DNA of 64,000 bases from the NCBI RefSeq assembly GCF_024612015.1, contig NZ_CP102512.1:1240001-1304000 (forward strand), read 5' to 3'. This document shows positions 29,146-43,764 of the stretch, one piece after another; within the stretch, counting starts at the first letter, position 1; each line of letters begins with the position of its first letter. The position numbers and the translations under genes are program-made. The notes below the pieces were generated by a model. That model was not told the origin of the DNA and searched no databases. It saw only the letters and a program-made list of their open reading frames with translations. This DNA comes from Streptomyces sp. CA-210063 (GTDB taxonomy: Bacteria > Actinomycetota > Actinomycetes > Streptomycetales > Streptomycetaceae).

Positions 29146-29161
29146 AATTTGAGTCCGAACG
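29146..29161. promoter_or_regulatory. Amine-regulon operator candidate, site 1 (MarR gene)
   Basis: AATTTGAGTCCGAACG, a weaker copy of CGTTTG-N4-CAAACG, 46 bp before the MarR start. It suggests autoregulation. Confidence 0.5.
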
Positions 29162-29207
29162 ATAGTGTCGATCCAGTGCGTCGCGGAGACGTCGAAGGGG
29201 TGTGCCC

Positions 29208-29786
29208 GTGCCCGGCCATCGATCCATCACCGAAGCCGAGAAGCTGGCCGATGCGAAGCTCGGCGGCATCCCGATCCGCCACGAGCAGATGGCTGTCGTG
29301 GCCAACATCTACCGGGCGGCCTCGGCGGTCCGGCAGCATCTGGAGAACTCCGTACTCCGCGGATCCGACCTGACCTGGACGGCGTTCGTCGTGCTCTGGG
29401 TGGTCTGGGTCTGGGGCGAGTCGGAGACCCGGCATGTGGCTGAGGAAGCGGGGATCTCCAAGGGCACGCTCACCGGGGTCACGCGCACGCTGGAGGCACG
29501 GGGGCTGGTGCGGCGGAGCGGTCATCCCACCGACGGGAGGCTGGTTCTGCTCAGCCTCACGGACAAGGGCGAGGAATTGATGCGGCGGCTGTTTCCGCAG
29601 TTCAACGAGGAGGAGGCATTCGTCGCCGGGCAGCTCGGCGACGAGGAGTGCCGCAGCGTCGCCGACGGACTGCGGCGAATTGTGCTCCAGGTCGAGGAGC
29701 ACGGCGAGGAGCGTCGGCGCACACTCCTGAACGGTGCCGAGCCCGCCCTACGTCGCAGTGGTCGCCGTCCGAAGCCGAAGGCGTGA
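29208..29786 (+). CDS. MarR-family transcriptional regulator
   Basis: 192 residues from GTG 29208, chosen because AAGGGG lies 7 nt upstream; GTG 29202 is an in-frame alternative. The winged helix is visible (DLTWTAFVVLWVVWVWGESE, ETRHVAEEAGISKGTLTGVT, GLVRRSGHPTDGRLVLLSLT). A basic C-terminal tail ends RRSGRRPKPKA. It stands at the edge of the amine/homoprotocatechuate genes and has a copy of their shared operator in its promoter, so it is the best candidate for the regulator of that set. MarR proteins commonly respond to phenolic or aryl carboxylates. Confidence 0.87.
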   Translation: MPGHRSITEAEKLADAKLGGIPIRHEQMAVVANIYRAASAVRQHLENSVLRGSDLTWTAFVVLWVVWVWGESETRHVAEEAGISKGTLTGVTRTLEARGLVRRSGHPTDGRLVLLSLTDKGEELMRRLFPQFNEEEAFVAGQLGDEECRSVADGLRRIVLQVEEHGEERRRTLLNGAEPALRRSGRRPKPKA

Positions 29787-30027
29787 AGCGGAGCCCGCAC
29801 AGCGGGCGACGACTCAGAGGGAGAAAGGGGCTGGCAGATGCCCCAGCGCCGCGTCAGCTGTGCCACAAGGAGCACCCGCCCTCGTTCGCGGCCCGGCGCA
29901 GGTGCGGGAAGGTGTGGCCGCCGTCGGGCACTTCGACGATGAGCCCGCGTTCCCGGTGACGCGGTGGCAGCGGCGGCAGGTCCGCTGCGGCGTCCGGCGA
30001 GGGCCACGGCGGTGGGTTCTCGTGCTG

Positions 30028-30747
30028 TCAGTGGCGGTCGCGTGCGGCGCTTACGAGGACGTCGAACAGTCCCTGCTGGGCGGGGTCTTCGTGGGCGGTG
30101 TCCTCCGGGTGCCACTGGACGGCGGCGAACCAGCCGGGAACTCCGGGCAGTTCGAGCCCTTCCACTGTGTCGTCGGCGGCCCGGGCGGTGATCGTGAGGC
30201 CGGCGCCCGTACGGTCGACCCGCTGGTGGTGGTAGCAGGATGCCTCCACCTTCTCGGTGCCGGTGGCCTGTTCCAACAGCGAACCGCGCCGGATCGACAC
30301 CGGATGCACTACATGGCGGTGCTCGCGGTCCGGGCCGCCCATGTCCTGGTAGAGGGTGCCGCCGAAGGCGGTGTTGACGACCTGGAGACCACGGCAGATC
30401 GCGAGCAGGGGCAGGCCCAAGTTGATGGCCTGGCGGGCGACTTCCAGGTCGAAGCCGTCCTGGAGGTCGTCGACGTCGTACACGCTGTCGTGGGTGTCGG
30501 TCGCGCCGTAGCGGTACGGGGCGAGGTCGCCGCCGCCGGGGAGGAGGACGCCGTCGAAGCGGGCGAGGCGGGCGGCCACGCCGGTGGCGGTGGGCTCGGC
30601 GGGGTGGATGGTGGCCGGTTCGCCGCCGGCCCGCCAGACTGCCTCGACCAGCGCGCGGGCGTTGACCTCGGCGGCGTAGCGCAGGGCGGAGGTGGAGGCG
30701 GCGAAGCGGGCGGGGATCGCGATCAGCGGTCGCGCGGGCGTCGTCAC
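30028..30747 (-). CDS. Gamma-glutamyl-GABA hydrolase-like class I amidotransferase (PuuD-like)
   Basis: 239 residues from GTG 30747, overlapping the aldehyde dehydrogenase stop (GTGA). The peptidase C26/class I amidotransferase core is present: DGVLLPGGGDLAPYRYG, nucleophile Cys in LLAICRGLQVVNTAFGG, and catalytic His/Glu in VQWHPEDTA. The family removes the gamma-glutamyl group from gamma-glutamylated amino acids or amines. Coupled directly to a PuuC-like dehydrogenase. With the glutamine-synthetase-like ligase at 41089 it would complete an attach/oxidise/remove cycle. Confidence 0.9.
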   Translation of the reverse strand: MTTPARPLIAIPARFAASTSALRYAAEVNARALVEAVWRAGGEPATIHPAEPTATGVAARLARFDGVLLPGGGDLAPYRYGATDTHDSVYDVDDLQDGFDLEVARQAINLGLPLLAICRGLQVVNTAFGGTLYQDMGGPDREHRHVVHPVSIRRGSLLEQATGTEKVEASCYHHQRVDRTGAGLTITARAADDTVEGLELPGVPGWFAAVQWHPEDTAHEDPAQQGLFDVLVSAARDRH

Positions 30748-32234
30748 AGCTGGATCCAGGTGGTCTTGAGTTCGGTGTACTTCTCGATGGCGTGGGTGGA
30801 CTTGTCGCGTCCGTTGCCGGACTGCTTCACACCGCCGAAGGGCACGGTGAGGTCGCCCTCCTCGTAGCAGTTGACCCAGACCGTGCCGGCCTTCAGCGCG
30901 CGCGATACCTGGTGGGCGGTGGACAGGTCGGAGGTCCACAGCCCGGCGGCCAGGCCGTACTCGGTGGCGTTGGCGAGCGCGACGGCCTCGTCGACGTCGT
31001 CGAAGGTGAGCACGGACAGGACGGGGCCGAAGATTTCCTCACGGGCCAGCCGCATGCCCGGGTCCACGTGGTCGAAGACCGTGGGCTGCAGGTAACTGCC
31101 GCCGGTGCCGGCGAGTGTACGGCCGCCCCCGACTCGCAGCCGCGCGCCCTCGTCGAGGCCGGTGCCGATATGGCCCAGTACGCGCTGCAGGTGACGCTCA
31201 CCGACCAGCGCCCCCATCTCGGTCGCCGGGTCGAGCGGGTCACCGATCCGTAGTTCCCGGGCCCGCGCCACGATGGTGTCGGTGACGCGCTCGGCGATGG
31301 AGGAGTGCACGAGCAGCCGCGAAGGGGCCGTGCACATCTCGCCCTGGTTGAAGAAGATGCCCCAGGCGGCGGTGGCGGCGGCCTTCTCCAGGTCGGGTGC
31401 GTCCGGGAGGATGATGTTGGGTGACTTGCCGCCCAGCTCCAGCCAGACGCGCTTGAGGTTGGAGTCGGCCGCGTACCGCAGGAAGTGCCGCCCGACGGCG
31501 GTGGATCCGGTGAAGGCCAGCACGTCGATGTCCGGGTGGAGGCCGATCGCCCGTCCGGCGGTGGGCCCGTCGCCGGTGACGACGTTGAGTACGCCCGGCG
31601 GCAGCCCGGCCTCGGTCGCCAGTCTGCCGAGCAGCAACGCGGACAGCGGCGAGTTCTCCGACGGCTTGAGCACGACGGTACAGCCGGCCGCGAGCGCCGG
31701 AGCGACCTTCCAACTCGCCAGCGTGAGGGGGAAGTTCCAGGGGACGACCGCGCCGACGACGCCCGCCGGTTCACGGGTGACCAGGGCAAGTGCGTCGGGC
31801 GCGGTGTGCGGCGACTCGTCGGTGAGCTTGTCGGCCAGCTGCCCGTACCAGCGGAAGGTGTTGATCGCGGCGCGCAGTTCGATGTCGTACGCGTCCGTGA
31901 TCGGCTTGCCCATCTCCAGGCTGATCGTCAGCGCCAGCCGGTGTCGCTGCTCCTCCAGCAGATCGGCGATGCGCAGCAGGATCCGGCCCCGGTCGGCAGG
32001 TGCGAGGCGTGGCCACGGCCCCGAGTCGAAGGCCCGGCGCGCGGCGGCCACTGCGGCGTCCACCTCGGCAGTCCCGGCGTCGGCCACGTGCGCCAGCACC
32101 TGCCCGTCGCGGGGCGAGACAGCCGCGTAGGACTGCCCCCCGCCGGGTTCGTCGGTGCCGTCGATGTGATGCACGCCGGACAGGTCCAGTGCCTCGGCCC
32201 GGCGCAGCCATTCGTTGTGGGTGATGTCCAGCAT
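30744..32234 (-). CDS. Aldehyde dehydrogenase (PuuC-like, gamma-glutamyl-aminobutyraldehyde/aryl aldehyde type)
   Basis: 496 residues from ATG 32234, with GGAGG 6 nt upstream. ALDH motifs: PWNFPLTLASWKVAPALAAG, FTGSTAVGRH, LELGGKSPNIILPDA (general base Glu) and FNQGEMCTAPSRLL (nucleophile Cys). Its N-terminus (MLDITHNEWLRRAEAL) resembles PuuC-type enzymes. First gene of a two-gene operon with the PuuD-like hydrolase. A near-perfect operator lies ~25 bp upstream. Confidence 0.9.
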   Translation of the reverse strand: MLDITHNEWLRRAEALDLSGVHHIDGTDEPGGGQSYAAVSPRDGQVLAHVADAGTAEVDAAVAAARRAFDSGPWPRLAPADRGRILLRIADLLEEQRHRLALTISLEMGKPITDAYDIELRAAINTFRWYGQLADKLTDESPHTAPDALALVTREPAGVVGAVVPWNFPLTLASWKVAPALAAGCTVVLKPSENSPLSALLLGRLATEAGLPPGVLNVVTGDGPTAGRAIGLHPDIDVLAFTGSTAVGRHFLRYAADSNLKRVWLELGGKSPNIILPDAPDLEKAAATAAWGIFFNQGEMCTAPSRLLVHSSIAERVTDTIVARARELRIGDPLDPATEMGALVGERHLQRVLGHIGTGLDEGARLRVGGGRTLAGTGGSYLQPTVFDHVDPGMRLAREEIFGPVLSVLTFDDVDEAVALANATEYGLAAGLWTSDLSTAHQVSRALKAGTVWVNCYEEGDLTVPFGGVKQSGNGRDKSTHAIEKYTELKTTWIQL

Positions 32235-32259
32235 GCGTGGCCTCCAGCTCTCAGTATTA

Positions 32260-32275
32260 CGTTTGAGCCCAAACG
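32260..32275. promoter_or_regulatory. Amine-regulon operator candidate, site 2 (best match)
   Basis: CGTTTGAGCCCAAACG, a perfect 6+6 inverted repeat, ~26 bp upstream of the aldehyde dehydrogenase start. Its position near the ribosome site suggests repression. Confidence 0.65.
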
Positions 32276-32770: not shown

Positions 32771-33053
32771 TCAGCCGTCGGCCGTCGTCCTGCCACGGGT
32801 CAGCCGTGCGCCGATGACGCCCAGGACCAGGACCGCCGGGACGGTGAGCTCCAGCCACATCGCCGTGCCCTGGTCCCCGCCGATGAGGGTGGTGAAGTTG
32901 GCCAGGATCAGCCAGATGGCACCGGCGATGCCGAGCGCACCCAGGACGGGGGCGATCAGCGTGTTCCAGGGGCGAGTGTCCAACCGTTCCCGGCGGAAGA
33001 ACACGACCACCGAGACGGAGGTCAGGAAATACAGAAGCATGACCGCCAGCACC
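32621..33053 (-). repeat. Source copy of a ~430-bp inverted duplicate (permease 3' end plus flank)
   Basis: This block, holding the last ~90 codons of the APC permease gene and ~150 bp downstream, recurs on the plus strand at 49005-49435 with high identity in the coding part and small indels beyond. Both ends of the match are abrupt. Confidence 0.8.
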
Positions 33054-34228
33054 GCGACCCCGCTGAACCACGAGAAGAGATGCAGCACCGGGTCCTTGCC
33101 CAGCAGCGCGAAGGGCATGACCAGCGCGAGCGAGATCACGCTCTGCACGCCGCCGGCCACCCAGGGCGAGTGGCGTCGGTTGACCGCGGTCAGCCCGCGC
33201 GGCAGCAGGCCGTCGCGGCCGAGCGAGAACAGGTAGCGGTTCGCGGAGTTGTGGAAGGCGAGGACGCCGGCGAAGAGTGAGGTGGCCAGCAGGATGGGCA
33301 GCGCGTCGCCCACCCAGCCGCCGAACTGTGCGGTGATCGGCGCGAAGACCCAGGACGTGGCGTCGCCGCTCTCCAGCGCCTGCCCGGCGGCCGCGGTGGC
33401 GTTCGAGGCGCCATGGGCGGAGACCAGCATCCACGAGATGAAGGCGAAGAAGACGGTGACGACCACGACGGACAGGTACGTGGCCCGGGGCACGGTCCTG
33501 CGGGGCTCCCTCGCCTCCTCGCCGTAGATCGCGGTCGCCTCGAAGCCGAACATCGACGCCACGGCGAACATCAGCGCCACGCCCGGCGCCCCCTGCAGGG
33601 CCGCGTGGGGCGAGAAGCTGTGAGCGAAGCCCAGCCCCTCAGGACCGCCGCCCTTGAAGAAGGTCACCAGGGCGAAGACGAGCAGGATGCTGAACTCGGC
33701 CAGGACGAAGACGGCGAGGATCTTGGCGCCCATCTCGATCCCGGCGGCACCGAGGATCTGGACGATCACCATGGTGACCAGGACGCAGACCCACCACGGC
33801 GCGCTCAGCCCCGTGTACTGCTCGACCAGGCCGCTGACGATGAAGCCGTACAGGCCGTACATGGCGGCCTGTACCGCGCAGTAGGCGAAGAGAGCGACGC
33901 CGGCGCTCCCGGAGCCGATGGGGCGGCCGAGCCCCTTGCCGATGTAGGTGTAGAAGGCGCCGGCGTCCACGACATGGCGCCCCATGGCGACGAAGCCGAC
34001 GGAGAACAGCAGGATGACGGCGCCGACCGCGGCATACGCGGCGGGCGCACCCGCGCCGTTGCCGATGGCGACGGCGATGGGCACGGCGCCGGCTATGCCG
34101 GTCAGCGGTGCCTGCGCGGAGAGGACGAAGAAGAGGATTCCCAGAACACCGAGGGAGTTGGGTTTGAGCCGGCCTGCAGTGGGTGCGTTCTGCACGGTCT
34201 GTATTGGTTCGACCGTCTGACTGTCCAC
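32771..34228 (-). CDS. APC-superfamily amino acid/amine permease
   Basis: ~485 residues from GTG near 34228 (VDSQTVEPIQTVQNAP), with AGGTGATC upstream; a TTG-started frame reaches 34273 but would overlap the operator. About 12 hydrophobic segments; APC features are LGILFFVLSAQAPLTGIAG near the N-terminus, MFGFEATAIYGEEAREPRRT and NSANRYLFSLGRDGLLPRGL. Proton-coupled uptake of an amine or amino acid is expected. Separated by ~540 bp from the PuuC-like operon, with its own operator copy. Its last ~90 codons are duplicated at 49 kb. Confidence 0.9.
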   Translation of the reverse strand: MDSQTVEPIQTVQNAPTAGRLKPNSLGVLGILFFVLSAQAPLTGIAGAVPIAVAIGNGAGAPAAYAAVGAVILLFSVGFVAMGRHVVDAGAFYTYIGKGLGRPIGSGSAGVALFAYCAVQAAMYGLYGFIVSGLVEQYTGLSAPWWVCVLVTMVIVQILGAAGIEMGAKILAVFVLAEFSILLVFALVTFFKGGGPEGLGFAHSFSPHAALQGAPGVALMFAVASMFGFEATAIYGEEAREPRRTVPRATYLSVVVVTVFFAFISWMLVSAHGASNATAAAGQALESGDATSWVFAPITAQFGGWVGDALPILLATSLFAGVLAFHNSANRYLFSLGRDGLLPRGLTAVNRRHSPWVAGGVQSVISLALVMPFALLGKDPVLHLFSWFSGVAVLAVMLLYFLTSVSVVVFFRRERLDTRPWNTLIAPVLGALGIAGAIWLILANFTTLIGGDQGTAMWLELTVPAVLVLGVIGARLTRGRTTADG

Positions 34229-34260
34229 GCGGATCACCTGCCTGGAAGGGGGAGAGGTTT

Positions 34261-34276
34261 CGTTTCGAGCCAAACG
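34261..34276. promoter_or_regulatory. Amine-regulon operator candidate, site 3 (permease)
   Basis: CGTTTCGAGCCAAACG, one mismatch to CGTTTG-N4-CAAACG, about 35 bp upstream of the permease start. Confidence 0.6.
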
Positions 34277-34440
34277 AGTTGCCTCATAGTGAGCTGGAAC
34301 TATCCAGATGACAAGGGGTTGCAGGGTGATTTTTGGGCCACTGCATCGCTTGTTGCGAGGCCGTGACCGAGGTGACAGGCGAGCCGAACGAGGCCCCGGT
34401 CGCCAAGCGTCCGGGGCCTCACAACAGGCAGGTCGGCGAG

Positions 34441-35075
34441 TCAGTCGCCGCTGTCGCCCGCACTCTCGCCGTCTGCGTCGGCGTCGAGCAACCGCAGCAG
34501 GGAGCGGAGCTCCTCGATGGCCGCGTCGGTGACCTCGGGTCCGCCGCCCAGGACGAGCTGGTGCAGGACGAGACCGTCCAGGGCGGCGAAGACCAGCCGC
34601 GTCATCCCCGGTTCGCGCCCTCGGGGAGTATCCGGGACAGCTCGCGCTCGGTGGCGTCGAAGTACTCGTCGTACAGCCCGCGGATCAGCGGCAGCAGCTC
34701 CGGCCTGCGCCGGGATTCGAGCAGCAGCTCGTACTGGAAGACCTGGGTGTCTGGATCGGCCGTGACCATCTCGGACACTCCGGCCGAGAAGTCCGACACC
34801 TTGCCGGTCCCCGGCTCGACCGCGCTGACGCTCAGGCTGGTGCGTACGGTGTGGGCGAGCGCCTCCTCGATCAGCGCGTCGCGGGTGCCGAAGTGGTGGA
34901 CGACCAGACCGTGAGTGCCCCCTGCCTCCTCCGCCACCGCGCGATAGGTGAGTTTGCGCAGACCGCCCCGGGCCACCACCCGCACGGCCGCGTTGAGCAG
35001 GGCCTCCCGGCCCTCCCCGTAGTTCAGCCGCTTGCGCGGCCTGCGGCCCTCGGGGGTCTTGGCGGCTTCGGTCAT
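34441..35075 (-). pseudogene. TetR-family regulator with a C-terminal frameshift
   Basis: From ATG 35075 the frame encodes a standard TetR N-terminus (REALLNAAVRVVARGGLRKL, AVAEEAGGTHGLVVHHFGTR) and most of the ligand domain, but ends at 34602 after LPEGANRG. A one-base shift continues PGMTRLVFAALDGLVLHQLV and ELRSLLRLLDADADGE to TGA at 34441, the expected helical end of the family. It may be a recent loss, a sequencing slip, or a shortened but working repressor. A perfect palindrome lies 19 bp upstream of the start. Adjacent to the homoprotocatechuate genes. Confidence 0.7.
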
Positions 35076-35204: not shown

Positions 35205-36050
35205 TCAGCGCTTGGGGGGCCGGATACCGCGGAACTCCCAGTCGCCGCCGAGCGCGGTGGACAGGACCTCTTCCGATTCGGTGGGCTGGGCTCCGACGTC
35301 CGTACGGATCGAGGTGGGGCCGGTGACGATGTGGTTGGTGAGCCGCCCCAGACCCTCGACCTCGACCTCGACGACGTCACCGGGCTGGACGGGCCGGGAG
35401 TTGGCCGGGGTGCCGGAGAGCAGTACATCCCCGGGGTGGAGGGTGATGGTGCGGGCGATGTCGGCGACGAGGTAGTGCATGTCCCACTCCATCTCGTCCG
35501 TCGAACCGTCCTGCACGAGCTCGCCGTTGACGTACGTGCGCAGGTACTTGCCGTGGAAGTCCCAGTCGGTGACAAGGCCCGGGCCGAGCGGACACAGGGT
35601 GTCGGAGCCCTTCACCCGCAGCATCGAGCCGGCGTCGGTGTCGCGGAAGTCGTGCAGGCCGTAGTCGTTGGCGACGGTGTAACCGGCGATGTACTCCCCC
35701 GCCTCGGCAGGGGAGATGTTGCGCGCGGTCCGGCCGATGACGATCGCCACCTCGCCCTCGTAGTTGAGCCACTTGCAGCCCTCGGGGCGGACGATGGCGC
35801 CCTTGTGGGAGTTGAGGGCCGAGGTCGGCTTGTGGAAGTACGTCGGCGTCGGGGTCAGCTGGATCTGGAACTCGTCCACCCGGCTGCGGTGGTTGAGGTG
35901 AACGGCGACGACCTTGGACGGCACGACCGGCGGCAGGTGCTGGGCGTCCTCGATCTTGACCCGGCGGCCGTCCCCGGCGACGAGTTCGTCACCGTCACGG
36001 ATGGTCTCGACGGCGGCTCCGTCGAGGAGGACACGGCGGTATTCGGGCAT
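35205..36050 (-). CDS. FAH-family hydrolase, HpaG-like (homoprotocatechuate isomerase/decarboxylase)
   Basis: 281 residues from ATG 36050. FAH-fold: KVVAVHLNHRSRVDEFQIQL, metal motif LNYEGEVAIVIGRTARNI, ANDYGLHDFRDTDAGSM and the C-terminal HPGDVLLSGTPANSRPVQPG. The set of neighbours (extradiol dioxygenase, semialdehyde dehydrogenase) indicates the 5-oxopent-3-ene-1,2,5-tricarboxylate decarboxylase/2-hydroxyhepta-2,4-diene-1,7-dioate isomerase role. Last gene of a six-gene minus-strand operon, 11 bp after the dioxygenase. Confidence 0.85.
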   Translation of the reverse strand: MPEYRRVLLDGAAVETIRDGDELVAGDGRRVKIEDAQHLPPVVPSKVVAVHLNHRSRVDEFQIQLTPTPTYFHKPTSALNSHKGAIVRPEGCKWLNYEGEVAIVIGRTARNISPAEAGEYIAGYTVANDYGLHDFRDTDAGSMLRVKGSDTLCPLGPGLVTDWDFHGKYLRTYVNGELVQDGSTDEMEWDMHYLVADIARTITLHPGDVLLSGTPANSRPVQPGDVVEVEVEGLGRLTNHIVTGPTSIRTDVGAQPTESEEVLSTALGGDWEFRGIRPPKR

Positions 36051-36061
36051 GGCGGGCCTTT

Positions 36062-36988
36062 CTAGGAGCGGCTGTGCGGGGAGGCGGATGCGGGCGTGCC
36101 GGTGCCGGTCCAGCCGTCGGCCGGACGGTCGAACCAGAGGTGGACCTGGCCGGTGCCGATGGAGTTCTCGTACTCGCCGTACTGACGTGCCTCGGCGACG
36201 CATGCCTGCTCGCCGAGGGCGCCGGCCATCATCAGGTAGTGGTAGAAGCGGGCCTCGGGCTTGTACTTCCAGAACTCGTCCATGGTGTCGAGGACCTTGT
36301 CGTGGCGGCCCTCCTTGAACCAGGCGATGCGCTCGTAGTCGGCCTCGCGGGCCTCGGGCGTGAAGATGTGGCCGGGGTCGCTCGACTCGTGGTCGCGAAG
36401 CTCGCGCAGCGGCCAGAAGGTGTGCGACAGCGCACCGGAGGCGATCAGCAGCACGCGGCGGCCAGGGGTGGCGGCGATACCGTCCGCGAGGGCGCGGCCG
36501 AGCCGCAGGTGGTCCTCCATGTCACCGGTCTGGCAGACGCCGATGGTCACCCATCGCTTGTCGGGCAGCCCCTCGCCGAGGAACGTCCACAGGTTGGTGG
36601 TGGCGTAGTAGACCGGCAGGTACTCGTCGTCGATGGCGGTGATCCAGGTGCCGTGCTTGTCGGCGAACCGGGCGATGTTGTGGGCCAGTTCGGGATCGCC
36701 CGGGAAGTCGTACGGCATCCGGCACATGCCGCGCGGCAGTTCCTCGGAGGTGAACAGTCCGGCCCTGCGCTGCTGGGCGGTGACGACGAACTCGACGGTG
36801 GTGGCCCAGTGCGAGTCGAGGACCACGACTGTGTCGTAGTCGTCACTGTCGAAGACGTCCTCGCGGAGCTGTCGCAAGCCGGTGACGAGAGTGATCTCCT
36901 TGCCCTCGTTCAGCTCGAGCCGGTCGGACTCCGGCAGCACGATGGTGGGGACGTGGGCGAGCAGGCCCGCCCCGACGATTTCACCCAT
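36062..36988 (-). CDS. Extradiol dioxygenase, LigB type; probable 3,4-dihydroxyphenylacetate 2,3-dioxygenase
   Basis: 308 residues from ATG 36988, overlapping the dehydrogenase stop by 8 nt. Class III (LigB) extradiol features: GAGLLAHVPTIVLP near the N-terminus (iron-ligand His), VVVLDSHWATTVEFVV, and LIASGALSHTFWPL. The length and DPGHIFTPEAREADYERIAW fit homoprotocatechuate dioxygenases, which open the ring next to the hydroxyls using Fe(II) and O2. It should hand its product to the semialdehyde dehydrogenase encoded just upstream. Confidence 0.87.
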   Translation of the reverse strand: MGEIVGAGLLAHVPTIVLPESDRLELNEGKEITLVTGLRQLREDVFDSDDYDTVVVLDSHWATTVEFVVTAQQRRAGLFTSEELPRGMCRMPYDFPGDPELAHNIARFADKHGTWITAIDDEYLPVYYATTNLWTFLGEGLPDKRWVTIGVCQTGDMEDHLRLGRALADGIAATPGRRVLLIASGALSHTFWPLRELRDHESSDPGHIFTPEAREADYERIAWFKEGRHDKVLDTMDEFWKYKPEARFYHYLMMAGALGEQACVAEARQYGEYENSIGTGQVHLWFDRPADGWTGTGTPASASPHSRS

Positions 36989-38444
36989 GGTCTTGCCATC
37001 CGTTCGGCGCGGTGACGGTGTTCTTGAGGTCGCAGTAGAAGTCGAAGCTCCACGTGCCGCCCTCGCGGCCGACGCCCGAGTGGCGGGAGCCGCCGAAGGG
37101 CGCCTGGAGGTCGCGTACGAAGAAGCAGTTGACCCAGACCGTGCCCGCGACGAGCCGCGCGGTGACCCGCTCGGCACGCTCGTGGTCGCCGGTGACGAGG
37201 GTGGCGGCCAGACCGAAGCGCGTGTCGTTGGCGAGGCACACGGCCTCTTCCTCGTCGCCGAAGGTCTGGAGCGTCAGGACCGGACCGAAGACCTCCTCCT
37301 GCACGATCTCCGAGTCCTGGGCGACATCGGTGAGGAGGGTCGGCTCGTAGTACAGCCCGTCCTTGCGCTTGCCGCCGATGACCGCGCGAGCCCCGTCCTC
37401 CAGCGCGCGCCGCACGAAGCCGTCGATCTTCTCCAGCTGGCGCGGGTGGATGTTGGGGCCGAGGTCGGTGGCCTCGTCGCGCGGATCGCCCTGCCTGAGC
37501 CGGCTCGCCTTCTCCACGAACCGGCGGGTGAACTCGTCCGAGACCGTCTCCTCGACAAGGATGCGGGTCGCGGCCAGGCATACCTGTCCGGCGTTGTCGT
37601 ACTGCTCCACCGCCAGGTCCACGGCGAGGTCGAGATCCGCGTCGGCGAAGACCAACAGCGGCGACTTGCCGCCGAGTTCGAGGCTGAGGGGGGTGAGGTT
37701 GGCGGCGGCCGCCCGGGCGATGCGCCGGGCGGTGGGCACGGAACCGGTGAAGCTGATCCGGCGGACGTCCGGGTGCGAGACAAGAGGGTTGCCGACCTCG
37801 GCGCCGTATCCCTGCACGACGTTGAGGACACCGGCCGGCAGCCCGGCCTCGGCCGCGATGTCGGCGAGCAGTGAAGCGGTGAGCGGGGACCACTCGGCTG
37901 GCTTGAGGATCACCGTGTTCCCGGCGGCCAGCGCCGGGGCGACCTTCCACGTGGCCAGCATCAGCGGGGCGTTCCACGGCGTGATCAGCACGCACGGGCC
38001 CGCCGGGTCCCAGCTCACGTGGTTGGTGTGGCCGCGGGTGTCGAATGCCTCGTGCTCCAGCTTCAGCAGCCAGTCGGCGAAGAAGCGGAAGTTGTGCGCC
38101 ACGCGCGGCATCACGCCTCGGCGGTGGGAGCGCAGGAGGGCGCCGTTGTCGAGCGTCTCGACACTGGCGAGGTCCTCGATGCGCTTCTCGACTCCGTCGG
38201 CGATGGCGTGCAGGATGCGGGCGCGCTCGGCGCGCGACGTGGCGGCCCAGGCGGGAAAGGCGGCGCGAGCGGCGTCGACGGCCGCCGCGGCCTCCGTCGC
38301 CGTGCCCCGGGAGATCTCCCCGAGGGTGCTCCCGTCGATCGGCGACACGTCGGTGAACGTCTCGACGGACGCCACGCGTTCACCGCCGATCCAGTGCCGG
38401 GTGTCGACGGCGACCCCGGCCACCGTGGTGATGTGTTCGGTCAT
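36981..38444 (-). CDS. Aldehyde dehydrogenase, probable 5-carboxymethyl-2-hydroxymuconate semialdehyde dehydrogenase (HpaE-like)
   Basis: 487 residues from ATG 38444. ALDH catalytic motifs: ITPWNAPLMLATWKVAPALA, LSLELGGKSPLLVFADADLD (Glu), NAGQVCLAATRIL (Cys). FFVRDLQAPFGGSRHSGVGR at the C-terminus is characteristic of HpaE/HpcC-type enzymes. It oxidises the ring-cleavage semialdehyde with NAD. Overlaps the dioxygenase gene downstream; 34 bp after the acetoacetate-decarboxylase-family gene. Confidence 0.9.
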   Translation of the reverse strand: MTEHITTVAGVAVDTRHWIGGERVASVETFTDVSPIDGSTLGEISRGTATEAAAAVDAARAAFPAWAATSRAERARILHAIADGVEKRIEDLASVETLDNGALLRSHRRGVMPRVAHNFRFFADWLLKLEHEAFDTRGHTNHVSWDPAGPCVLITPWNAPLMLATWKVAPALAAGNTVILKPAEWSPLTASLLADIAAEAGLPAGVLNVVQGYGAEVGNPLVSHPDVRRISFTGSVPTARRIARAAAANLTPLSLELGGKSPLLVFADADLDLAVDLAVEQYDNAGQVCLAATRILVEETVSDEFTRRFVEKASRLRQGDPRDEATDLGPNIHPRQLEKIDGFVRRALEDGARAVIGGKRKDGLYYEPTLLTDVAQDSEIVQEEVFGPVLTLQTFGDEEEAVCLANDTRFGLAATLVTGDHERAERVTARLVAGTVWVNCFFVRDLQAPFGGSRHSGVGREGGTWSFDFYCDLKNTVTAPNGWQDHG

Positions 38445-38478: not shown

Positions 38479-39285
38479 TTACTCGGCCTCGGAGGTGCCG
38501 GACTCCAGCAGTCGGCCGCCGTCCCAGACGACGCCCACCTGCCGGTAGTACGCGGCGATCGGCTCCCGGATCTCCAGCCGGGCCAGCTCTTCGGTCGGCG
38601 CCTCGAACAGCTCCAGTTCCGCGTCCCCGACCCACGGCTGTCCGGCCTCGAAGGACGCGGCGCCGGTCTCGATCAACTCGTCGAGCGCGAGGCCCTTGCC
38701 GTTCTCGATGGAAGGCAGCCAGCGGTGGTGGGCCATCGGGTGGCCGTTGACGAAGCCGTTGGTCTCGGACGGCTCGCGCAGGGTCACCACCGTCTGGGCC
38801 AGGCGTCGGTCGGCGGCGGCGAGGGTCGCGCCGAAGCGGGCCCCGGCCTCGATGCGCGGGGCCGGACCGTAGGGGTGCGGGCGCGTCTGGTGGATCGAAC
38901 CGAGCTTCTTCGGGTAGCCCTGGTGCAGCCCGCGGGCGATCGCGAAGTCCTTGTCGACCCAGATGTGGACGCAGCGCGAGTACGTCTGCCCCTTGTACGA
39001 GCAGCGGACGACCGCGAAGGCCTCCTTGTACTGGGAGCGCACCGGGTCCAGCAGCTCCTCCTTCGTACCGGAACAGGACTGCCAGTCGGCCCAGATCAGC
39101 GCGACCGCGCCCGGGTCCTCCTCGGCGAGTTCCAGCGGTTCGGGCAGCAACTCCCGTACGCGTGCGGGATCGGTGCGGTACTCGATCGTGAGCAGGTCGC
39201 CGGAGTAGTGCCAGGGGGGCGAGGGGATCAGGGACGACGAACCGGTCGCCGTCTTGGGGTGGAAGTAACCACGGACGCTGGCCAT
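38479..39285 (-). CDS. Acetoacetate decarboxylase family protein
   Basis: 268 residues from ATG 39285. The acetoacetate decarboxylase fold is indicated by PPWHYSGDLLTIEYRTDPAR, SYKGQTYSRCVHIWVDKDFA and RGLHQGYPKKLGSIHQTRP, with the paired lysines of the Schiff-base site. A beta-keto acid or dienoic-acid decarboxylase/hydratase-like function is possible. It has no established place in the homoprotocatechuate pathway, so its substrate here is unknown. Lies between the ferredoxin reductase and the semialdehyde dehydrogenase with short gaps. Confidence 0.82.
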   Translation of the reverse strand: MASVRGYFHPKTATGSSSLIPSPPWHYSGDLLTIEYRTDPARVRELLPEPLELAEEDPGAVALIWADWQSCSGTKEELLDPVRSQYKEAFAVVRCSYKGQTYSRCVHIWVDKDFAIARGLHQGYPKKLGSIHQTRPHPYGPAPRIEAGARFGATLAAADRRLAQTVVTLREPSETNGFVNGHPMAHHRWLPSIENGKGLALDELIETGAASFEAGQPWVGDAELELFEAPTEELARLEIREPIAAYYRQVGVVWDGGRLLESGTSEAE

Positions 39286-39297
39286 GACGTTGGTTCC

Positions 39298-40512
39298 TTA
39301 CGCGGTGAGAGCGGGCTGCTTGAGGAGCTGGGCGCGGTAGCGGGCGGCGCCGGTGGCGGCGGCGTGGCCGCCGAGGGCGACGACTCCGACGAGCTGCCCG
39401 CCGTCGGTGTGGTAGCCGACCAGCAGGTCGCCGCCCGGATCGCCGTCCAGGACGCGGATGTCGGCGAGGCCGAGCACGGGGGAACCGAAGGACTGCAGCC
39501 GGAAGTCGTGCTGGTCGCTCCAGAAAGTGGGCAGCGGCGCGAACAGCGCCAAGCCGGCTTGCGCACCCGCGAGATGAGCCACCAGTGCCTTGGCCGCATG
39601 CTTCGCCGTGTCGCTGGGGATCGACCAGTGCTCGACCCGGCGCGGTACGCCGTCGTAGCGGGCGTTGGGGAAGCGGGCGACGTCGCCGACCGCGACGACG
39701 TGCGGCAGTCCGCCGACCCGGAGCTGCTCGTCCGTGAGCACGCCGTCGGTCAGGTCGAGACCGTTGCCGTCGAGCCACTCGGTGTTGGCGACGGAGCCGA
39801 CCGACTCCACGACCACATCGGCCGGGAGCACCGTCCCGTCGCTCAGTACGACCCCGGTGACGTGCTCCTCGCCCTCGAACCCGGAGACGCCCGCACCGAG
39901 GGCGAAGCGCACGCCGCGTTCCTCGTGCCGCCGCAGCAGCGCGCGGGCCGGCAGCTCGCCGAGCGGTCCGACCATGGGCAGCGGCAGCGGGTCGACCACG
40001 GTGACGTCCGTGACGCCGAGAGCGACCGCTGTGGCGGCCACCTCGCAGCCGATGAACCCGGCACCGATGACGACGATCTGGGCGCCCGGCCGGACCAGCT
40101 CGGCCCGCAGGGCCTGAGCGTCACCGAGAGTCCGTACGGTGTGACGGCCGAACGCGGGACCCTCGCAGCGCAGGCGCCGGGGACGCATACCCGTGGCGAC
40201 GACCAGGCCGTCGAAGGGCAGCTCCTCGCCGCTGTCGAGCACGACGACCCGCTCGGCGAGGCGGGCGCTCGTGACGCTCGTACCGAGCCGCCACTCCACG
40301 TCGGCCGCGCTCGCCTTGGGAGTGAAGGCCAGGGACTCGAAGGGCGCCTTCCCTGCCAGCACTTCCTTGGAAAGAGGCGGCCGGTTGTACGGCATGTGGG
40401 GCTCGTCACCGATCACGGTGATCGCGCCGGTCCACCCGGCGCCGCGGAGTTGTTCGGCCGCGCGCAGGCCGCCCATGGAGGCCCCGGCGACGATGATGCG
40501 CTGCGTCGTCAC
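39298..40512 (-). CDS. FAD/NAD(P)-dependent ferredoxin reductase
   Basis: 404 residues from GTG 40512, 5 nt after the ferredoxin stop. FAD-binding start IIVAGASMGGLRAAEQLRGA, NAD(P)-binding IVVIGAGFIGCEVAATAVAL, and VVAVGDVARFPN are the usual pyridine-nucleotide oxidoreductase motifs; the C-terminal reductase domain follows. The layout is that of putidaredoxin-reductase-like enzymes. It should pass electrons from NAD(P)H to the neighbouring ferredoxin and on to the P450 at 42466. Confidence 0.9.
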   Translation of the reverse strand: MTTQRIIVAGASMGGLRAAEQLRGAGWTGAITVIGDEPHMPYNRPPLSKEVLAGKAPFESLAFTPKASAADVEWRLGTSVTSARLAERVVVLDSGEELPFDGLVVATGMRPRRLRCEGPAFGRHTVRTLGDAQALRAELVRPGAQIVVIGAGFIGCEVAATAVALGVTDVTVVDPLPLPMVGPLGELPARALLRRHEERGVRFALGAGVSGFEGEEHVTGVVLSDGTVLPADVVVESVGSVANTEWLDGNGLDLTDGVLTDEQLRVGGLPHVVAVGDVARFPNARYDGVPRRVEHWSIPSDTAKHAAKALVAHLAGAQAGLALFAPLPTFWSDQHDFRLQSFGSPVLGLADIRVLDGDPGGDLLVGYHTDGGQLVGVVALGGHAAATGAARYRAQLLKQPALTA

Positions 40513-40517
40513 GCCGC

Positions 40518-40706
40518 TCAGTCCTCGATCCGGATGGCCTGCAGCGGACAGACGTCGGCGGCTTCCTCGACCTCGTCGCGCAGGGTGTCGTCCGGGTCGC
40601 TGACGTAGGCCAGCCGTCCGTTGTCGTCCAGCTGGAAGACGTCGGGGGCCGCGAAGACACACTGTCCGTGGTCCTTGCACTTGTTCATGTCGACGACGAC
40701 CTTCAT
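40518..40706 (-). CDS. 3Fe-4S ferredoxin (P450-type)
   Basis: 62 residues from ATG 40706, with AGGAGG 7 nt upstream. Cluster ligands: Cys10 and Cys16 in MNKCKDHGQCVFAAPDVFQL and Cys53 in ADVCPLQAI; the residue that would be the fourth Cys is not Cys, as in 3Fe-4S P450 ferredoxins. First gene of the six-gene operon. With the adjacent reductase and the divergently transcribed P450 it forms a complete class I P450 system. Confidence 0.92.
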   Translation of the reverse strand: MKVVVDMNKCKDHGQCVFAAPDVFQLDDNGRLAYVSDPDDTLRDEVEEAADVCPLQAIRIED

Positions 40707-40783
40707 GGCCGGTCCTCCTGGAAGGTGGGTGCGCCGGAGCGGGAGGGAGAGAGAGGGAGAGAGAGGGGCAGGGGGCGGGATGG

Positions 40784-40810
40784 AAGGGCCCGGCCTGTGG
40801 CCGGGCCCTT
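40784..40810 (-). terminator. Strong hairpin in the ferredoxin leader
   Basis: Perfect 12-bp stem AAGGGCCCGGCC/GGCCGGGCCCTT with a TGT loop, between the operator at 40846 and the ferredoxin start. In the minus-strand transcript it would be in the 5' leader. It may be an attenuator, or a barrier to readthrough from elsewhere. Confidence 0.45.
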
Positions 40811-40845
40811 GGCCAAAGGGGTACGGGAGAGCCGAACCCCTGACT

Positions 40846-40861
40846 CGTTTGGCTTCAAACA
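40846..40861. promoter_or_regulatory. Amine-regulon operator candidate, site 4
   Basis: CGTTTGGCTTCAAACA, one mismatch from the 6+6 repeat, on the ferredoxin-operon side of the divergent region. Confidence 0.6.
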
Positions 40862-40953
40862 ACATAGGAAGCCGCCACGCCCTGGTCAATACCTATCCGG
40901 ATGGATAAATTCTTTGGTGCACCCCCTTGCGGGAAGGCGGACCGCCTCCATAC

Positions 40954-40969
40954 CGTTTGGCTTCAAATG
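40954..40969. promoter_or_regulatory. Amine-regulon operator candidate, site 5
   Basis: CGTTTGGCTTCAAATG, 108 bp from site 4 and ~120 bp upstream of the ligase gene. The two sites share the spacer GCTT. Confidence 0.6.
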
Positions 40970-41088
40970 ATTGACCGGGGCTTCACGACCGCGCCATCGC
41001 CCGGCGCCCCGGGTCCAGTCTTCGCTCCGCCACCCTCCCCCCGGGCCCGAGGCCCGAGAGGTGCCCCGAATCCGCCGAGGAGACATCG

Positions 41089-42444
41089 GTGAGCGCTCAC
41101 GACACCCCATCCGTCCGCCGGCACCAGGACCGGCTCGCCGCCGAGGGCATCGACGTGGTCCGGGTGACCTACCCCGACCTCATCGGCACCGACCGGGCCC
41201 GCGACGTGCTGCTCGACCACCTGCCGTCGGCCTGCGAGCACGGCCTGGCCTTCTGCCGCGCCGTCTACCACACCACCCCGCGCGGGGACGTCGTCGCGAT
41301 CGAGGGCGGCATCGAGGCCGGCCTGCCCGATATCTCCGTGCGACCGGATCTGAGCACCCTCGCACGGGTGCCCTGGGAGCCCGGCGTGGCGTGGTGTCTC
41401 GGTGACACGACCGACCCGGCGACCGGCGGGCCGGCCGCGGAGTCGCCGCGCGATCTGCTGCGCTCGGTGCTGGCCCGATGTACGGACGCGGGTCTGAGCC
41501 CGGTCGTCGGCCCGGAGCTGGAGTACTTCCTCCTTGAAGAGGACGCCACCGCGCCGAACGGCTGGCGGCGCAGCCCCGCCGTCACCGGAACCGTCTACAC
41601 CGCCGGCCTGCGCGCCGACCCCGACAACCACCTGCTGCGTACCCTGCGTCAGCTGCGCGACCTGGGCATCGGCGTCATCACCGGCAACCACGAGTTCGAC
41701 GGCGGCCAGTACGAGATCAACCTGACCCACTCCGACGCCCTGGACGCCGCCGACCGCGCGTTCCGCTTCAAGGCCGCCGTCAAGGAACTGGCGCGTACGG
41801 AAGGCAAGTTGGCCACCTTCATGGCCAAGCCCTTCAACGACTCGGGCGGCTCCGGCTTCCACCTGCACTTCTCCTGCGTCGACGCCGACGGCCGCAACGT
41901 CTTCGACGACCCGGCCGGCGCCTTCGGTCTCTCCGACAACGCCCGGTACGCCCTCGCCGGCCTCCTCGCGCACGCCCCGGCGCTCGCCGCGCTGCTCAAC
42001 CCGACCGTCAACTCGTACAAGCGCTTCGGGCCCGACACCCTCGCGCCCTGGCTGATCAACTGGGGCCTGGACAACCGAAGCGCCATGGTCCGCGTCCCGC
42101 CCGAGCGCGGCTCCGGCGCCCGCCTGGAGCTACGGCTCGGCGACGCCAGCGCCAACCCGTACCTCGCGATCGCGGCTCTCACCGCCGCCGCCCTGCTCGG
42201 CATCCAGGAGGGCAAGGAGCCGCCCGCACCACTGGAGGGCTACGGCTACGACACGGAGAAGTCCAAGGTCCTGCCGATGAACCTGACCGCCGCGCTCGAC
42301 GCCCTCGAAGCCGACGAAGCGCTCACCGAACTGCTGGGCAAGGACTTCACCACGTCCTTCCTCGCCTACAAGCGCGACGAGGCCGAACGCTTCCAACGAC
42401 ACGTCACCGACTGGGAGTTCGCCGAGTACTCCTACCACCTCTGA
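41089..42444 (+). CDS. Glutamine-synthetase-like gamma-glutamyl-amine ligase
   Basis: 451 residues from GTG 41089, with GAGGAG 7-8 nt upstream. The glutamine synthetase catalytic domain is recognisable: VVGPELEYFLLEED, GNHEFDGGQYEINLTHSDAL, MAKPFNDSGGSGFHLHFSCV, NPTVNSYKRFGPDTLAPWLI and RLELRLGDASANPYLAI. It diverges from true GlnA and resembles the PuuA/GlnA3-4/IpuC type, which joins glutamate's gamma-carboxyl to an amine using ATP. Operon with P450 and regulon with PuuC/PuuD-like genes strongly suggest amine catabolism, not nitrogen assimilation. The amine is not known. Confidence 0.9.
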   Translation: MSAHDTPSVRRHQDRLAAEGIDVVRVTYPDLIGTDRARDVLLDHLPSACEHGLAFCRAVYHTTPRGDVVAIEGGIEAGLPDISVRPDLSTLARVPWEPGVAWCLGDTTDPATGGPAAESPRDLLRSVLARCTDAGLSPVVGPELEYFLLEEDATAPNGWRRSPAVTGTVYTAGLRADPDNHLLRTLRQLRDLGIGVITGNHEFDGGQYEINLTHSDALDAADRAFRFKAAVKELARTEGKLATFMAKPFNDSGGSGFHLHFSCVDADGRNVFDDPAGAFGLSDNARYALAGLLAHAPALAALLNPTVNSYKRFGPDTLAPWLINWGLDNRSAMVRVPPERGSGARLELRLGDASANPYLAIAALTAAALLGIQEGKEPPAPLEGYGYDTEKSKVLPMNLTAALDALEADEALTELLGKDFTTSFLAYKRDEAERFQRHVTDWEFAEYSYHL

Positions 42445-42465
42445 GCACCCCGCCAGGAGCACACC

Positions 42466-43764
42466 ATGACGAGCACCCTGAACACCGCCGACACACACCA
42501 CGCCCCCGACGACCCGATGCCGCTGGACGAGGTCGACCTCGCCGACAACGACAAGTTCCTCGACGGCGTCACCCCCTGGCGCATGTTCCACACCCTGCGC
42601 CACCAGGACCCGGTCCACTGGCAGCCGGAGCCCGAGCCCAACCACGGCTTCTGGGCCGTCACCCGGCACGAGGACATCACCCGCGTGGGACGCGACGCGC
42701 AGACCTTCACCTCCACCAAGTTCGTCAACCTCGAAGAACTCGACGACGACCAGATCAAGAAGCGCGCCTCCATCCTGGAACTGGACGGCGTACGCCACCG
42801 CGCGATGCGCAGCCTGCTGCAGCGTCAGTTCGGCCAGGGCGTCATCAACGAGTACGCCGACTTCCTGCGCGGCCTGACCGCCAGGACCCTGGACACGGCC
42901 CTCGCCAAGGGCACGTTCGACTTCGTCGCCGACGTCTCCGCCGACTTCCCCATCAACGTCCTGGCCCGCCTCCTCGACGTCCCCCCGGGGGACAACCAGC
43001 AGCTCATCGACTGGGGCAACCGGATCATCGGCAACACGGACCCCGACTACGCCGATGTCCTCCTCCACAGCGAGGAGAGCGAGCAGTACAAGGATCTACC
43101 CTTCCGCAGCCCGGCCTCGCTGGAGGTCTTCGAGTACGGACGGGAGTTGGTCCGGCAGCGGCGGGGCGGCAGCGGCACCGACCTGATCTCCAGACTCGTC
43201 AACGAGACCCCGCGCGACGGCGTCCCGCTCTCCGCGCAGGACTTCGACAACTACTTCCTGCTACTGGTCGTGGCCGGCAACGAGACCACCCGCCACACCA
43301 TCTCGCACTCCATGCTGGCCCTCATCCAGCACCCCGAGCAGCTGGCCAAGCTTCAGGAAGACCCCTCCCTCATCCCGGTCGCCGTCGAGGAGTTCCTGCG
43401 CTGGGCCACGCCCGTCTACCACTTCCGCCGCACCGCGACACGCGACGTCGAACTCGGCGGCAAGCAGGTGAGGGAGGGCGACAAGGTCGTCATGTGGTAC
43501 GCCTCCGGCAACCGCGACGAAGAGGTCTTCGGCAACCCGTACGACTTCGACGTCACCCGCCAGAACAACGACCACCTCACCTTCGGCAAGGGCGGCCCCC
43601 ACCTGTGCCTGGGCAACCTGCTCGCCCGCACCGAGATCCGCATCATGTTCGAGGAACTGATCCCGCGCCTCGCCGGCATCCGCCTCGCCGGCGACGTCCC
43701 CCGGGTCCGCTCCAACTTCGTCAACGGCATCAAGAAGCTGCCGGTCGAGGTCACCCTCGCCTGA
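42466..43764 (+). CDS. Cytochrome P450
   Basis: 432 residues, 21 bp after the ligase. P450 signatures: I-helix LVVAGNETTRHTISHSMLAL, ExxR in VAVEEFLRWATPVYHFRR, and heme-binding FGKGGPHLCLGNLLARTEIR with the Cys ligand. N-terminal part resembles the CYP123/124/125-type actinomycete families (FHTLRHQDPVHW). Redox partners are probably the 3Fe-4S ferredoxin and reductase of the divergent operon. Proposed role: oxidation of the gamma-glutamylated amine or ring hydroxylation of the aryl group. Ends at a strong terminator. Confidence 0.93.
   Translation: MTSTLNTADTHHAPDDPMPLDEVDLADNDKFLDGVTPWRMFHTLRHQDPVHWQPEPEPNHGFWAVTRHEDITRVGRDAQTFTSTKFVNLEELDDDQIKKRASILELDGVRHRAMRSLLQRQFGQGVINEYADFLRGLTARTLDTALAKGTFDFVADVSADFPINVLARLLDVPPGDNQQLIDWGNRIIGNTDPDYADVLLHSEESEQYKDLPFRSPASLEVFEYGRELVRQRRGGSGTDLISRLVNETPRDGVPLSAQDFDNYFLLLVVAGNETTRHTISHSMLALIQHPEQLAKLQEDPSLIPVAVEEFLRWATPVYHFRRTATRDVELGGKQVREGDKVVMWYASGNRDEEVFGNPYDFDVTRQNNDHLTFGKGGPHLCLGNLLARTEIRIMFEELIPRLAGIRLAGDVPRVRSNFVNGIKKLPVEVTLA

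Follow-up and report, generated by a model that had tools for sequence, protein, structure and literature searches.

The gene cluster described here occupies 29.1–43.8 kb of a 64-kb stretch of DNA (the window: bases 1,240,001–1,304,000 of the 10.86 Mb single-contig, Streptomyces-type genome of Streptomyces sp. CA-210063), and to our knowledge it fits no known pathway as a whole, while sharing parts with several described routes of amine and aromatic catabolism. Like the Puu pathway of E. coli, it appears to contain a gamma-glutamyl amine ligase, a dehydrogenase of the PuuC clade, and a PuuD-type hydrolase, and the last two steps proposed below would be identical; in contrast to that pathway, no PuuB oxidase was found, the aldehyde would arise from ring cleavage and a retro-aldol reaction, and the proposed regulator is of the MarR family rather than PuuR. 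With Hpa meta-cleavage it shares a LigB-type extradiol enzyme, an HpaE-like dehydrogenase, an FAA-family decarboxylase, and an HpaR-like regulator, whereas no gene for HpaBC, the isomerases CHMI and HHDDI, the hydratase, or the aldolase was found in the cluster, which carries an enzyme of the ADC superfamily instead. Mycobacterial morpholine and piperidine loci also place a P450, a ferredoxin, and a glutamine-synthetase (GS)-like gene side by side, but they serve secondary alicyclic amines and have no ring-cleavage dioxygenase.

Further parallels come from the literature. According to PMC11335346, the aniline (AtdA/Tdn) and 1-naphthylamine (Npa) pathways begin with a glutamyl-organic-amide synthetase, and the aniline system has a GAT-like enzyme; there, however, the amine nitrogen is bonded to the ring itself, and the aniline-derived catechol is made by a Rieske dioxygenase before ring cleavage. 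The Streptomyces ethanolamine route (GlnA4) follows the same logic of gamma-glutamylation, aldehyde dehydrogenase, and hydrolase (PMC6529630), but involves no ring chemistry. The L-3,4-dihydroxyphenylalanine (L-DOPA) 2,3-dioxygenase of lincomycin-type biosynthesis likewise makes a 2,3-cut in a 3,4-dihydroxyphenyl compound whose side chain bears an amine (PMC12311729), although that amine is free, the product cyclises to a pyrroline, and the role of the enzyme is biosynthetic. A literature search over titles and abstract openings, with most subscription journals outside its coverage, returned no report of ring cleavage of a glutamylated arylethylamine. It is best described as an apparently new form of amine catabolism that proceeds by gamma-glutamylation.

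We consider it probable, judging from gene content and conservation, that the cluster encodes a MarR-controlled pathway for arylethylamines of the tyramine or dopamine type, in which gamma-glutamyl protection comes first and the ring is cleaved with the protected side chain attached. We also favour, a little less firmly, a protecting-group strategy in which the glutamate mask is kept through ring cleavage as far as gamma-glutamyl-aminobutyraldehyde, the amine ending as gamma-aminobutyrate (GABA) with no amine oxidase. Substrate, step order, regiochemistry, and the activity of each enzyme are what we infer; the sequences themselves show the gene families, the common operator, the conservation of the genes together, the changed ligase residues, and the position of PuuC in a tree. 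In step 1, the APC permease would import the amine, or a pyridoxal-phosphate (PLP)-dependent decarboxylase would form it from an aromatic amino acid. The GS-like ligase would then use ATP to join glutamate to the amine, giving gamma-glutamyl-tyramine (step 2), and the P450, served by the ferredoxin and reductase of the cluster, would hydroxylate the ring to the catechol gamma-glutamyl-dopamine (step 3). LigB would cut the 2,3 bond (step 4), the HpaE-like dehydrogenase would oxidise the semialdehyde (step 5), the FAA enzyme would decarboxylate the product with release of CO2 (step 6), and the ADC-like enzyme would hydrate it and release pyruvate, leaving 4-(gamma-glutamylamino)butanal (step 7). 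PuuC would oxidise this aldehyde to gamma-glutamyl-GABA (step 8), and PuuD would hydrolyse the latter to GABA and glutamate (step 9). The glutamyl tag would keep the ring-opened semialdehyde from cyclising onto the amine; the 2,3-cleavage product of DOPA, whose amine is free, is reported to cyclise in this way (PMC12311729), which supplies a reason for protection.

The proposed order of steps is suggested by a comparison with 3,4-dihydroxyphenylacetate catabolism, which according to PMC12718150 runs through a dioxygenase, CHMS dehydrogenase, CHM isomerase, OPET decarboxylase, HHDD isomerase, hydratase, and aldolase, and ends via succinic semialdehyde and its dehydrogenase. With a CH2-CH2-NH-gamma-Glu side chain in place of CH2-COOH, the same steps would, by our derivation, yield pyruvate and OHC-CH2-CH2-CH2-NH-gamma-Glu. 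That aldehyde is the substrate for which E. coli PuuC is named, and PuuC and PuuD are the two enzyme genes that remain, which favours the order in which the tag stays on. Ring cleavage of the tagged compound would give every structural gene a role and do without an amine oxidase.

Gene families were assigned by Pfam and NCBIfam profile matches to the window proteins (Table 1). The order is MarR; PuuD-like, PuuC-like, and APC; then TetR, FAA, LigB, HpaE-like, ADC, reductase, and ferredoxin, with the GS-like ligase and the P450 reading divergently from the ferredoxin end. An earlier, sequence-only reading of the window had named genes of this set, including an amine permease, a gamma-glutamyl amine ligase, and genes for ring cleavage, here by an HpaD-like enzyme, and profile matches back every gene that it named. 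Active-site motifs of the expected kind are present in PuuC, HpaE, PuuD, LigB, ADC, and the P450. The nearest named locus is that of Streptomyces sp. SID12488.

The cluster recurs widely. Loci are labelled L### and the genomes compared G###. A LigB scan of named genomes returned 212 relatives, and the loci of the best 80 of these were read. The window, its second copy, and L008–L088 make up 83 Streptomyces-type loci, in which a gene was scored present at 35% identity or above. LigB, HpaE, and ADC occur in all 83, FAA in 82, ferredoxin and reductase in 78 each, GS and PuuC in 77 each, PuuD in 76, APC in 74, and P450 in 72. The six loci without GS start at a contig end where GS is expected, and the L029 contig stops before the P450; corrected for coverage, the counts become 77/77 for GS (a fragment in L033) and 72/76 for P450. 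In a class-wide sample, LigB (E ≤ 1e-40) was found in 30 of 394 genomes and 12 of 137 genera. The distant set comprises 21 loci of other families (L121–L141), several of them cut by contig ends; its counts omit L120 and L142, both of the same genus, the latter with LigB alone, and L143, which is near-identical to the window. Here LigB, HpaE, and FAA are present in 21 loci each, P450 in 18, GS in 17, ADC in 16, ferredoxin and reductase in 15 each, PuuD in 11, a PLP-dependent decarboxylase in nine, APC in six, and PuuC in two. The same genome holds a second complete cluster at 723.9–737.0 kb (L006, L007), in the same order and at 80–92% identity, with P450, GS, ferredoxin, reductase, ADC, HpaE, LigB, FAA, TetR, APC, PuuC, and PuuD but no MarR. 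A whole cluster also lies on the 139.6-kb Streptomyces canus plasmid NZ_CP107732.1 (L088). The plasmid is classed as mobilizable and has integrase and transposase genes close to the cluster, so this copy may move between strains. Taken together with the shared operator described next, comparative sequence evidence indicates a real, widespread, co-regulated gene set in actinobacteria that would lead from amine to ring cleavage.

In the window, CGTTTG-N4-CAAACG occurs once exactly (at 32260) and three times with one mismatch (34261, 40846, and 40954), while the next-best site, with two mismatches at 47971, lies beyond the cluster. At up to two mismatches, five sites were found against 1.47 expected by chance, with a maximum of four in 100 shuffles. 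The sequence-only reading had counted a fifth copy beside MarR; this site carries three mismatches, which is chance level judged on the window alone, yet 36 of the 46 MarR-bearing Streptomyces-type loci (window and L120 included) have the same variant, AATTTG-N4-CGAACG, no more than 200 bp upstream of MarR, and because of that recurrence it is a real conserved variant of the operator. Among the 16 MarR-bearing distant loci, the best site upstream of MarR has one mismatch in nine, two in one, and three to five in six; a control pattern never came below three mismatches upstream of MarR in either set. With up to one mismatch allowed, CGTTTG-N4-CAAAYG turned up in three parts of the whole genome: the cluster, a second locus (726–733 kb), and a single unrelated place. 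The paralogous cluster carries three one-mismatch sites at corresponding places.

Across loci, sites that differ from CGTTYG-N4-CRAACG in no more than one position fall almost exclusively outside core genes: 212 outside (205 kb) against 1 inside (971 kb) in the 83 Streptomyces-type loci, and 58 (75 kb) against 1 (165 kb) in the 21 loci of other families; control patterns with reversed half-sites gave 0 in both sets; the intergenic DNA of relatives is not independent, although the distant loci come from other families. Among relatives, the operator extends to about TCGTTTGRNNYCAAACGA (202 sites). The gap between the GS and ferredoxin genes holds two sites (at most two mismatches) 102–109 bp apart in 71 of the 73 Streptomyces-type loci that possess both genes. 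One-mismatch sites in L011, L013, L067, and L070 were rejected as MarR promoter sites, lying 1.2–2.2 kb from MarR. In L013, an extra one-mismatch operator stands just upstream of a minus-strand gene, of no assigned family, that recurs in five loci.

MarR at first seemed the weaker candidate regulator, as the second copy of the cluster lacks it. It lies inside the fetched stretch in 45 of the 83 Streptomyces-type loci, and the genomes of 18 of the 38 loci without it were searched, all 18 having one MarR homologue (68–87%) elsewhere. In 27 same-genus genomes, MarR (E ≤ 1e-25) was found in 7/7 with LigB (E ≤ 1e-40) and in 1/20 without; G363, whose LigB (58%) is partnerless, was left out of this comparison. 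TetR is present in 77 of the 83 Streptomyces-type loci and in 2 of the 21 distant ones, against 16 of 21 for MarR. Since the operator tracks MarR and not TetR among the loci and genomes of relatives, MarR is the best candidate for its regulator, as the sequence-only reading had proposed together with a single regulon. Its best NCBIfam model is HpaR, at 49 bits against a cut-off of 121.2. TetR was set aside as the operator binder, the operator being kept with MarR and without TetR in most distant loci and in L022, L033, and L055, and the TetR frame of the window itself being apparently broken; it may act as a co-regulator alongside MarR. A 200-residue relative of the window TetR aligns in two frames here and in one frame in L008, where the gene is intact.

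The ligases of 27 loci were aligned with that of the window, L033 and L141 being partial. Two features of glutamine synthetase were compared, its aspartate loop and the flap glutamate (Glu327) within the PGFE motif. None of the aligned cluster ligases has the loop, and the flap position, where covered, is Leu, Met, or Thr (in L055); the GlnA-type L150 of the same genome retains FDG and PGFE. Glutamyl-organic-amide synthetases are described as having lost both Asp50 and the glutamate of the flap (PMC11335346, where the flap residue is numbered Glu357), and the cluster ligase shows both losses. The GS-like paralogues L147–L149 of the same genome also deviate from the canonical loop and flap, so the residue pattern marks an amine ligase in general rather than an aryl-amine ligase. 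The window ligase is 32% identical to E. coli PuuA and scores 266 bits with the GGputSyn model (cut-off 650).

PuuC of the cluster is 49% identical to E. coli PuuC and 42% to FeaB. In a midpoint-rooted tree of 28 rows it groups with E. coli PuuC (support 100/99), whereas neither E. coli FeaB, whose branch is long, nor the L055 enzyme of StyD type falls with them; the rows PuuC_L022, ALDH_L123, and ALDH_L138 are HpaE-type sequences, taken for want of a better match. Searches with E. coli PuuB and TynA (E ≤ 1e-6) found no homologue in 107 loci, and the apparent lack of an amine oxidase rests on these searches together with Pfam matches for nine of the 18 recurrent neighbour groups listed. L123 holds a GABA transaminase above cut-off (593.8 vs 506.65), which fits the model. 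A PuuC homologue (E ≤ 1e-100) was present in all 20 genomes searched, of which 19 belong to other families (the 21 distant genomes less two). The best homologue (52–60%) lies on the LigB contig, 12–24 kb away, in G165, G184, G263, and G311 (four of the 19); in G332, a short contig, which probably represents the opposite side of the cluster, has a 58% homologue next to APC, ADC, and part of GS, and in G165 the genes run PuuC, PuuD, second GAT, second GS. Matches in the remaining distant genomes are lower or unlinked, and few of ten PuuC stretches have an operator near PuuC, four having no site at all. These homologues lend the model moderate support, limited by the weaker and unlinked matches and by the size of the aldehyde dehydrogenase family. 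A GAT-class-I amidotransferase (PDB 7d54-like in L125) lies near GS in L122, L124, L125, L127, L129, L131, and others, and is perhaps a second gamma-glutamyl hydrolase.

Four loci, L033, L055, L076, and L078, have no P450 and keep the ligase (a fragment in L033), ring cleavage, PuuC, and PuuD, so the P450 is dispensable at the locus. L076 and L078 also lack the ferredoxin, reductase, and permease and retain GS, ADC, HpaE, LigB, FAA, TetR, PuuC, PuuD, and MarR; in the L078 genome (S. toyocaensis), no homologue of the cluster P450 was found at E ≤ 1e-60. L033 and L055 lack the ferredoxin, reductase, permease, and TetR, and their genomes hold a P450 of 86–87% elsewhere. The earlier idea that the P450 replaces an amine oxidase conflicts with these four loci. 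A BBE-like FAD oxidase (Pfam, L030 copy), with an export signal by eye, adjoins the P450 end in L023, L028, L030, L045, L051, and L063.

Among the cluster genes, to which the search was confined, CHMI, the HpaH hydratase, and the HpaI aldolase had no Pfam or NCBIfam match, and of the six open reading frames in gaps and overlaps of the cluster only the ferredoxin matched Pfam. The arrangement of two FAA domains, decarboxylase and HHDD isomerase, is replaced by one gene with one FAA domain. The ADC-like enzyme matches PDB entries 6eej (155.1 bits) and 4zbo (154.9 bits), both labelled acetoacetate decarboxylase. We take these to be of the Sbi00515 type; Sbi00515 and Swit_4259 are aldolase-dehydratases of the ADC superfamily, and, run in reverse, that reaction suggests hydration and retro-aldol cleavage for the cluster enzyme.

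Several findings weigh against the proposed pathway. LigB, HpaE, FAA, and PuuC score below their equivalog cut-offs (Table 1), although HpaE is its own best family, and the PuuD-like protein reaches 61.5 bits with the PuuD model against a cut-off of 266. No isomerase, neither CHMI nor HHDDI, was found in the cluster, and therefore the FAA enzyme or spontaneous tautomerisation has to serve. The argument from PuuC requires that LigB would cut at 2,3 rather than 4,5. The nearest solved relatives of the P450, CYP125 and CYP124, are named as hydroxylases of steroids and methyl-branched lipids, not of rings. PuuC, at 35% identity or more, falls inside the fetched 8–20 kb in only two of the 21 distant loci, and in L142 a LigB homologue stands without any partner gene. 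In L180 and L184, class III aminotransferases of the omega type, which could deaminate an amine, adjoin PuuC or lie close to it. Finally, a StyD equivalog (908.6 vs 800) lies near the L055 cluster, a StyD-like enzyme (523.7 vs 850) near that of L076, and an unclassified aldehyde dehydrogenase at the same place in L078; the StyD-type neighbours would fit arylacetaldehyde chemistry.

Such chemistry belongs to the order of steps given by the sequence-only reading, in which the P450 oxidises the carbon next to the nitrogen, the aldehyde is converted to 3,4-dihydroxyphenylacetate, the glutamate is removed, and meta-cleavage leads to succinic semialdehyde. We regard this order as unlikely, although besides the StyD-type enzymes near L055 and L076 it can draw on the nearest named families, HpaD, HpaE, and HpaG, and on the named LigB relatives listed, mostly labelled 3,4-dihydroxyphenylacetate 2,3-dioxygenase (some catechol 1,2-dioxygenase). 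A single P450 would have to both deaminate the amine and hydroxylate the ring, and N-dealkylation of a gamma-glutamyl amide would, by our reasoning, yield glutamine and leave PuuD idle. Retention of PuuC and PuuD in loci without the P450, the grouping of PuuC with true PuuC, and the lack of CHMI, HHDDI, hydratase, and aldolase among the cluster genes also speak against it; that reading was probably wrong on the step order, including the removal of glutamate before cleavage.

Evidence on the substrate comes mainly from decarboxylases. Beyond the window, its decarboxylase accompanies the cluster in just two close relatives, L008 and L143 (96%), and it is only 25–26% identical to those of distant clusters. 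PLP-dependent decarboxylases lie beside 9 of the 21 distant loci; eight are orthologous (51–92% to the L138 or L139 copy) and follow the reductase gene, and the ninth (L126) is only 27–28% identical to the other distant ones. The solved relatives of the L139 protein are 4obu, DOPA decarboxylase 7xin, and 4-hydroxyphenylacetaldehyde synthase, and its NCBIfam match is DABA decarboxylase; an aromatic substrate is likely, not proven, for the decarboxylase of distant loci. The operons of L033 and L055 hold a decarboxylase whose best models, below cut-off, are tyrosine decarboxylases. These neighbours fit an arylethylamine, which is the probable substrate, in agreement with the sequence-only reading. 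Chemistry of the 2-aminophenol type, AmnB being the second PDB relative of LigB (32 bits), was set aside, as the decarboxylases and PuuC indicate a side-chain amine. A 511-residue protein adjoins the reductase or decarboxylase gene in L128, L129, L131, L132, L133, and L135; it had no Pfam match (L129 copy) or PDB match (L131 copy), and was rejected as the distant-cluster decarboxylase, which is a separate gene.

There is a small chance that protected ring cleavage as proposed serves a methylated arylethylamine in nature (3-methoxytyramine, N-methyltyramine, hordenine, or the like), demethylated by a P450 or by a Rieske enzyme of the VanA/B type. Sixteen Streptomyces loci carry an additional P450, 10 of them also with an F420-type LLM oxidoreductase, and these 16 include all FolD loci (10/10) and all Streptomyces PurU loci (6/6); as FolD and PurU handle one-carbon units, the second P450 may act in demethylation and so extend the set of substrates. 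PurU-like genes in L125 (above cut-off), L128, L129, and L132, and VanA-like genes in L121, L127, L135, and L137, point the same way, but no second P450, FolD, or PurU was detected in the window cluster, most loci are without them, and they look like an optional upstream module. The F420-dependent LLM oxidoreductase (TIGR03619 in L125) is found in 30 of 107 loci, such as L122, L125, L129, L131, L134, and L088, and has no role in the scheme. Very improbable is a pair of unrelated modules under one regulator, a Puu-type one that handles an aliphatic amine and another for catechol meta-cleavage: PuuC, PuuD, and APC do form operator-marked unit(s) of their own, missing from a few relatives such as L085 (all three) and L022 (PuuC and PuuD), but GS stands next to the P450, across from the ring-cleavage genes, rather than with PuuC/PuuD, the genes co-occur across families, and no PuuB-type oxidase was found.

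Table 1. Features of the cluster and its surroundings, in window coordinates; scores are profile matches in bits.
Feature	Position	Strand	Evidence
PLP-dependent decarboxylase, possible amine supplier	25922..27367	-	PF00282, 281.7
Variant operator upstream of MarR	29146..29161		3 mismatches to consensus; variant conserved in relatives
MarR-family regulator, proposed to bind operator sites	29202..29786	+	PF01047; HpaR model below cut-off
PuuD-like gamma-glutamyl hydrolase (Peptidase_C26)	30028..30747	-	PF07722, 161.6; ICRGLQ and QWHPE motifs (Cys, His-Glu)
PuuC-like dehydrogenase, proposed substrate gamma-glutamyl-gamma-aminobutyraldehyde	30744..32234	-	Best NCBIfam PuuC, 557 (cut-off 850)
Operator, exact, upstream of PuuC	32260..32275		Motif search of window
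APC-family permease, proposed amine importer	32771..34273	-	PF13520, PF00324
Operator at start of APC permease gene	34261..34276		1 mismatch
TetR-family regulator, frame apparently broken near 3' end	34602..35075	-	PF00440, PF17940
Single-domain FAA-family enzyme, proposed decarboxylase (HpaG C-terminal-domain-like)	35205..36050	-	TIGR02303, 204.8 (cut-off 276.4); N-terminal model 114.6
LigB-type extradiol dioxygenase (HpaD-like), proposed ring cleaver	36062..36988	-	PF02900; TIGR02298, 118.2 (cut-off 315.95); best PDB match 8iq8
HpaE-like semialdehyde dehydrogenase	36981..38444	-	TIGR02299, 539.1 (cut-off 638.35); top of all families
ADC-superfamily enzyme, proposed hydratase/retro-aldolase replacing HpaH and HpaI	38479..39285	-	PF06314, 196.6; MppR-like, PDB 4zbo/4jm3 relatives; YPKK motif
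Ferredoxin reductase, HcaD-like	39298..40512	-	PF07992, PF14759
Ferredoxin, single-cluster type	40518..40706	-	PF13370, PF13459
Operator in divergent promoter	40846..40861		1 mismatch
Second operator in divergent promoter	40954..40969		1 mismatch; 108 bp from first; spacing conserved
GS-like gamma-glutamyl amine ligase	41089..42444	+	PF00120, 339.8; Asp50 loop and flap Glu replaced
Cytochrome P450, proposed ring hydroxylase	42466..43764	+	PF00067, 82.6; best PDB relative CYP125MRCA, 401

Outside the cluster, an open reading frame at 44764–45801 (-) matches pectinesterase and, close to its N-terminus, shows a short Pfam hit for ribosome-inactivating protein; a shorter frame at 44414–44845 follows it. 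On the other side, 28393–28857 matches only the NAD-binding half of glyceraldehyde-3-phosphate dehydrogenase and is likely a gene remnant.

If the proposed pathway is correct, tyramine, dopamine, and related amines would have a complete aerobic route in actinobacteria that involves no oxidase, hydrogen peroxide, or free arylacetaldehyde. Aromatic ring cleavage and polyamine catabolism would meet at one intermediate, linking ring cleavage to GABA. The model would also assign a substrate to the GS-like ligase, the P450, the LigB dioxygenase, and the ADC-like enzyme, which are known here by family alone. Related clusters occur in genomes down to 1.3 Mb, and since genomes of that size carry few pathways, the substrate of the cluster may matter in the habitat of these bacteria.

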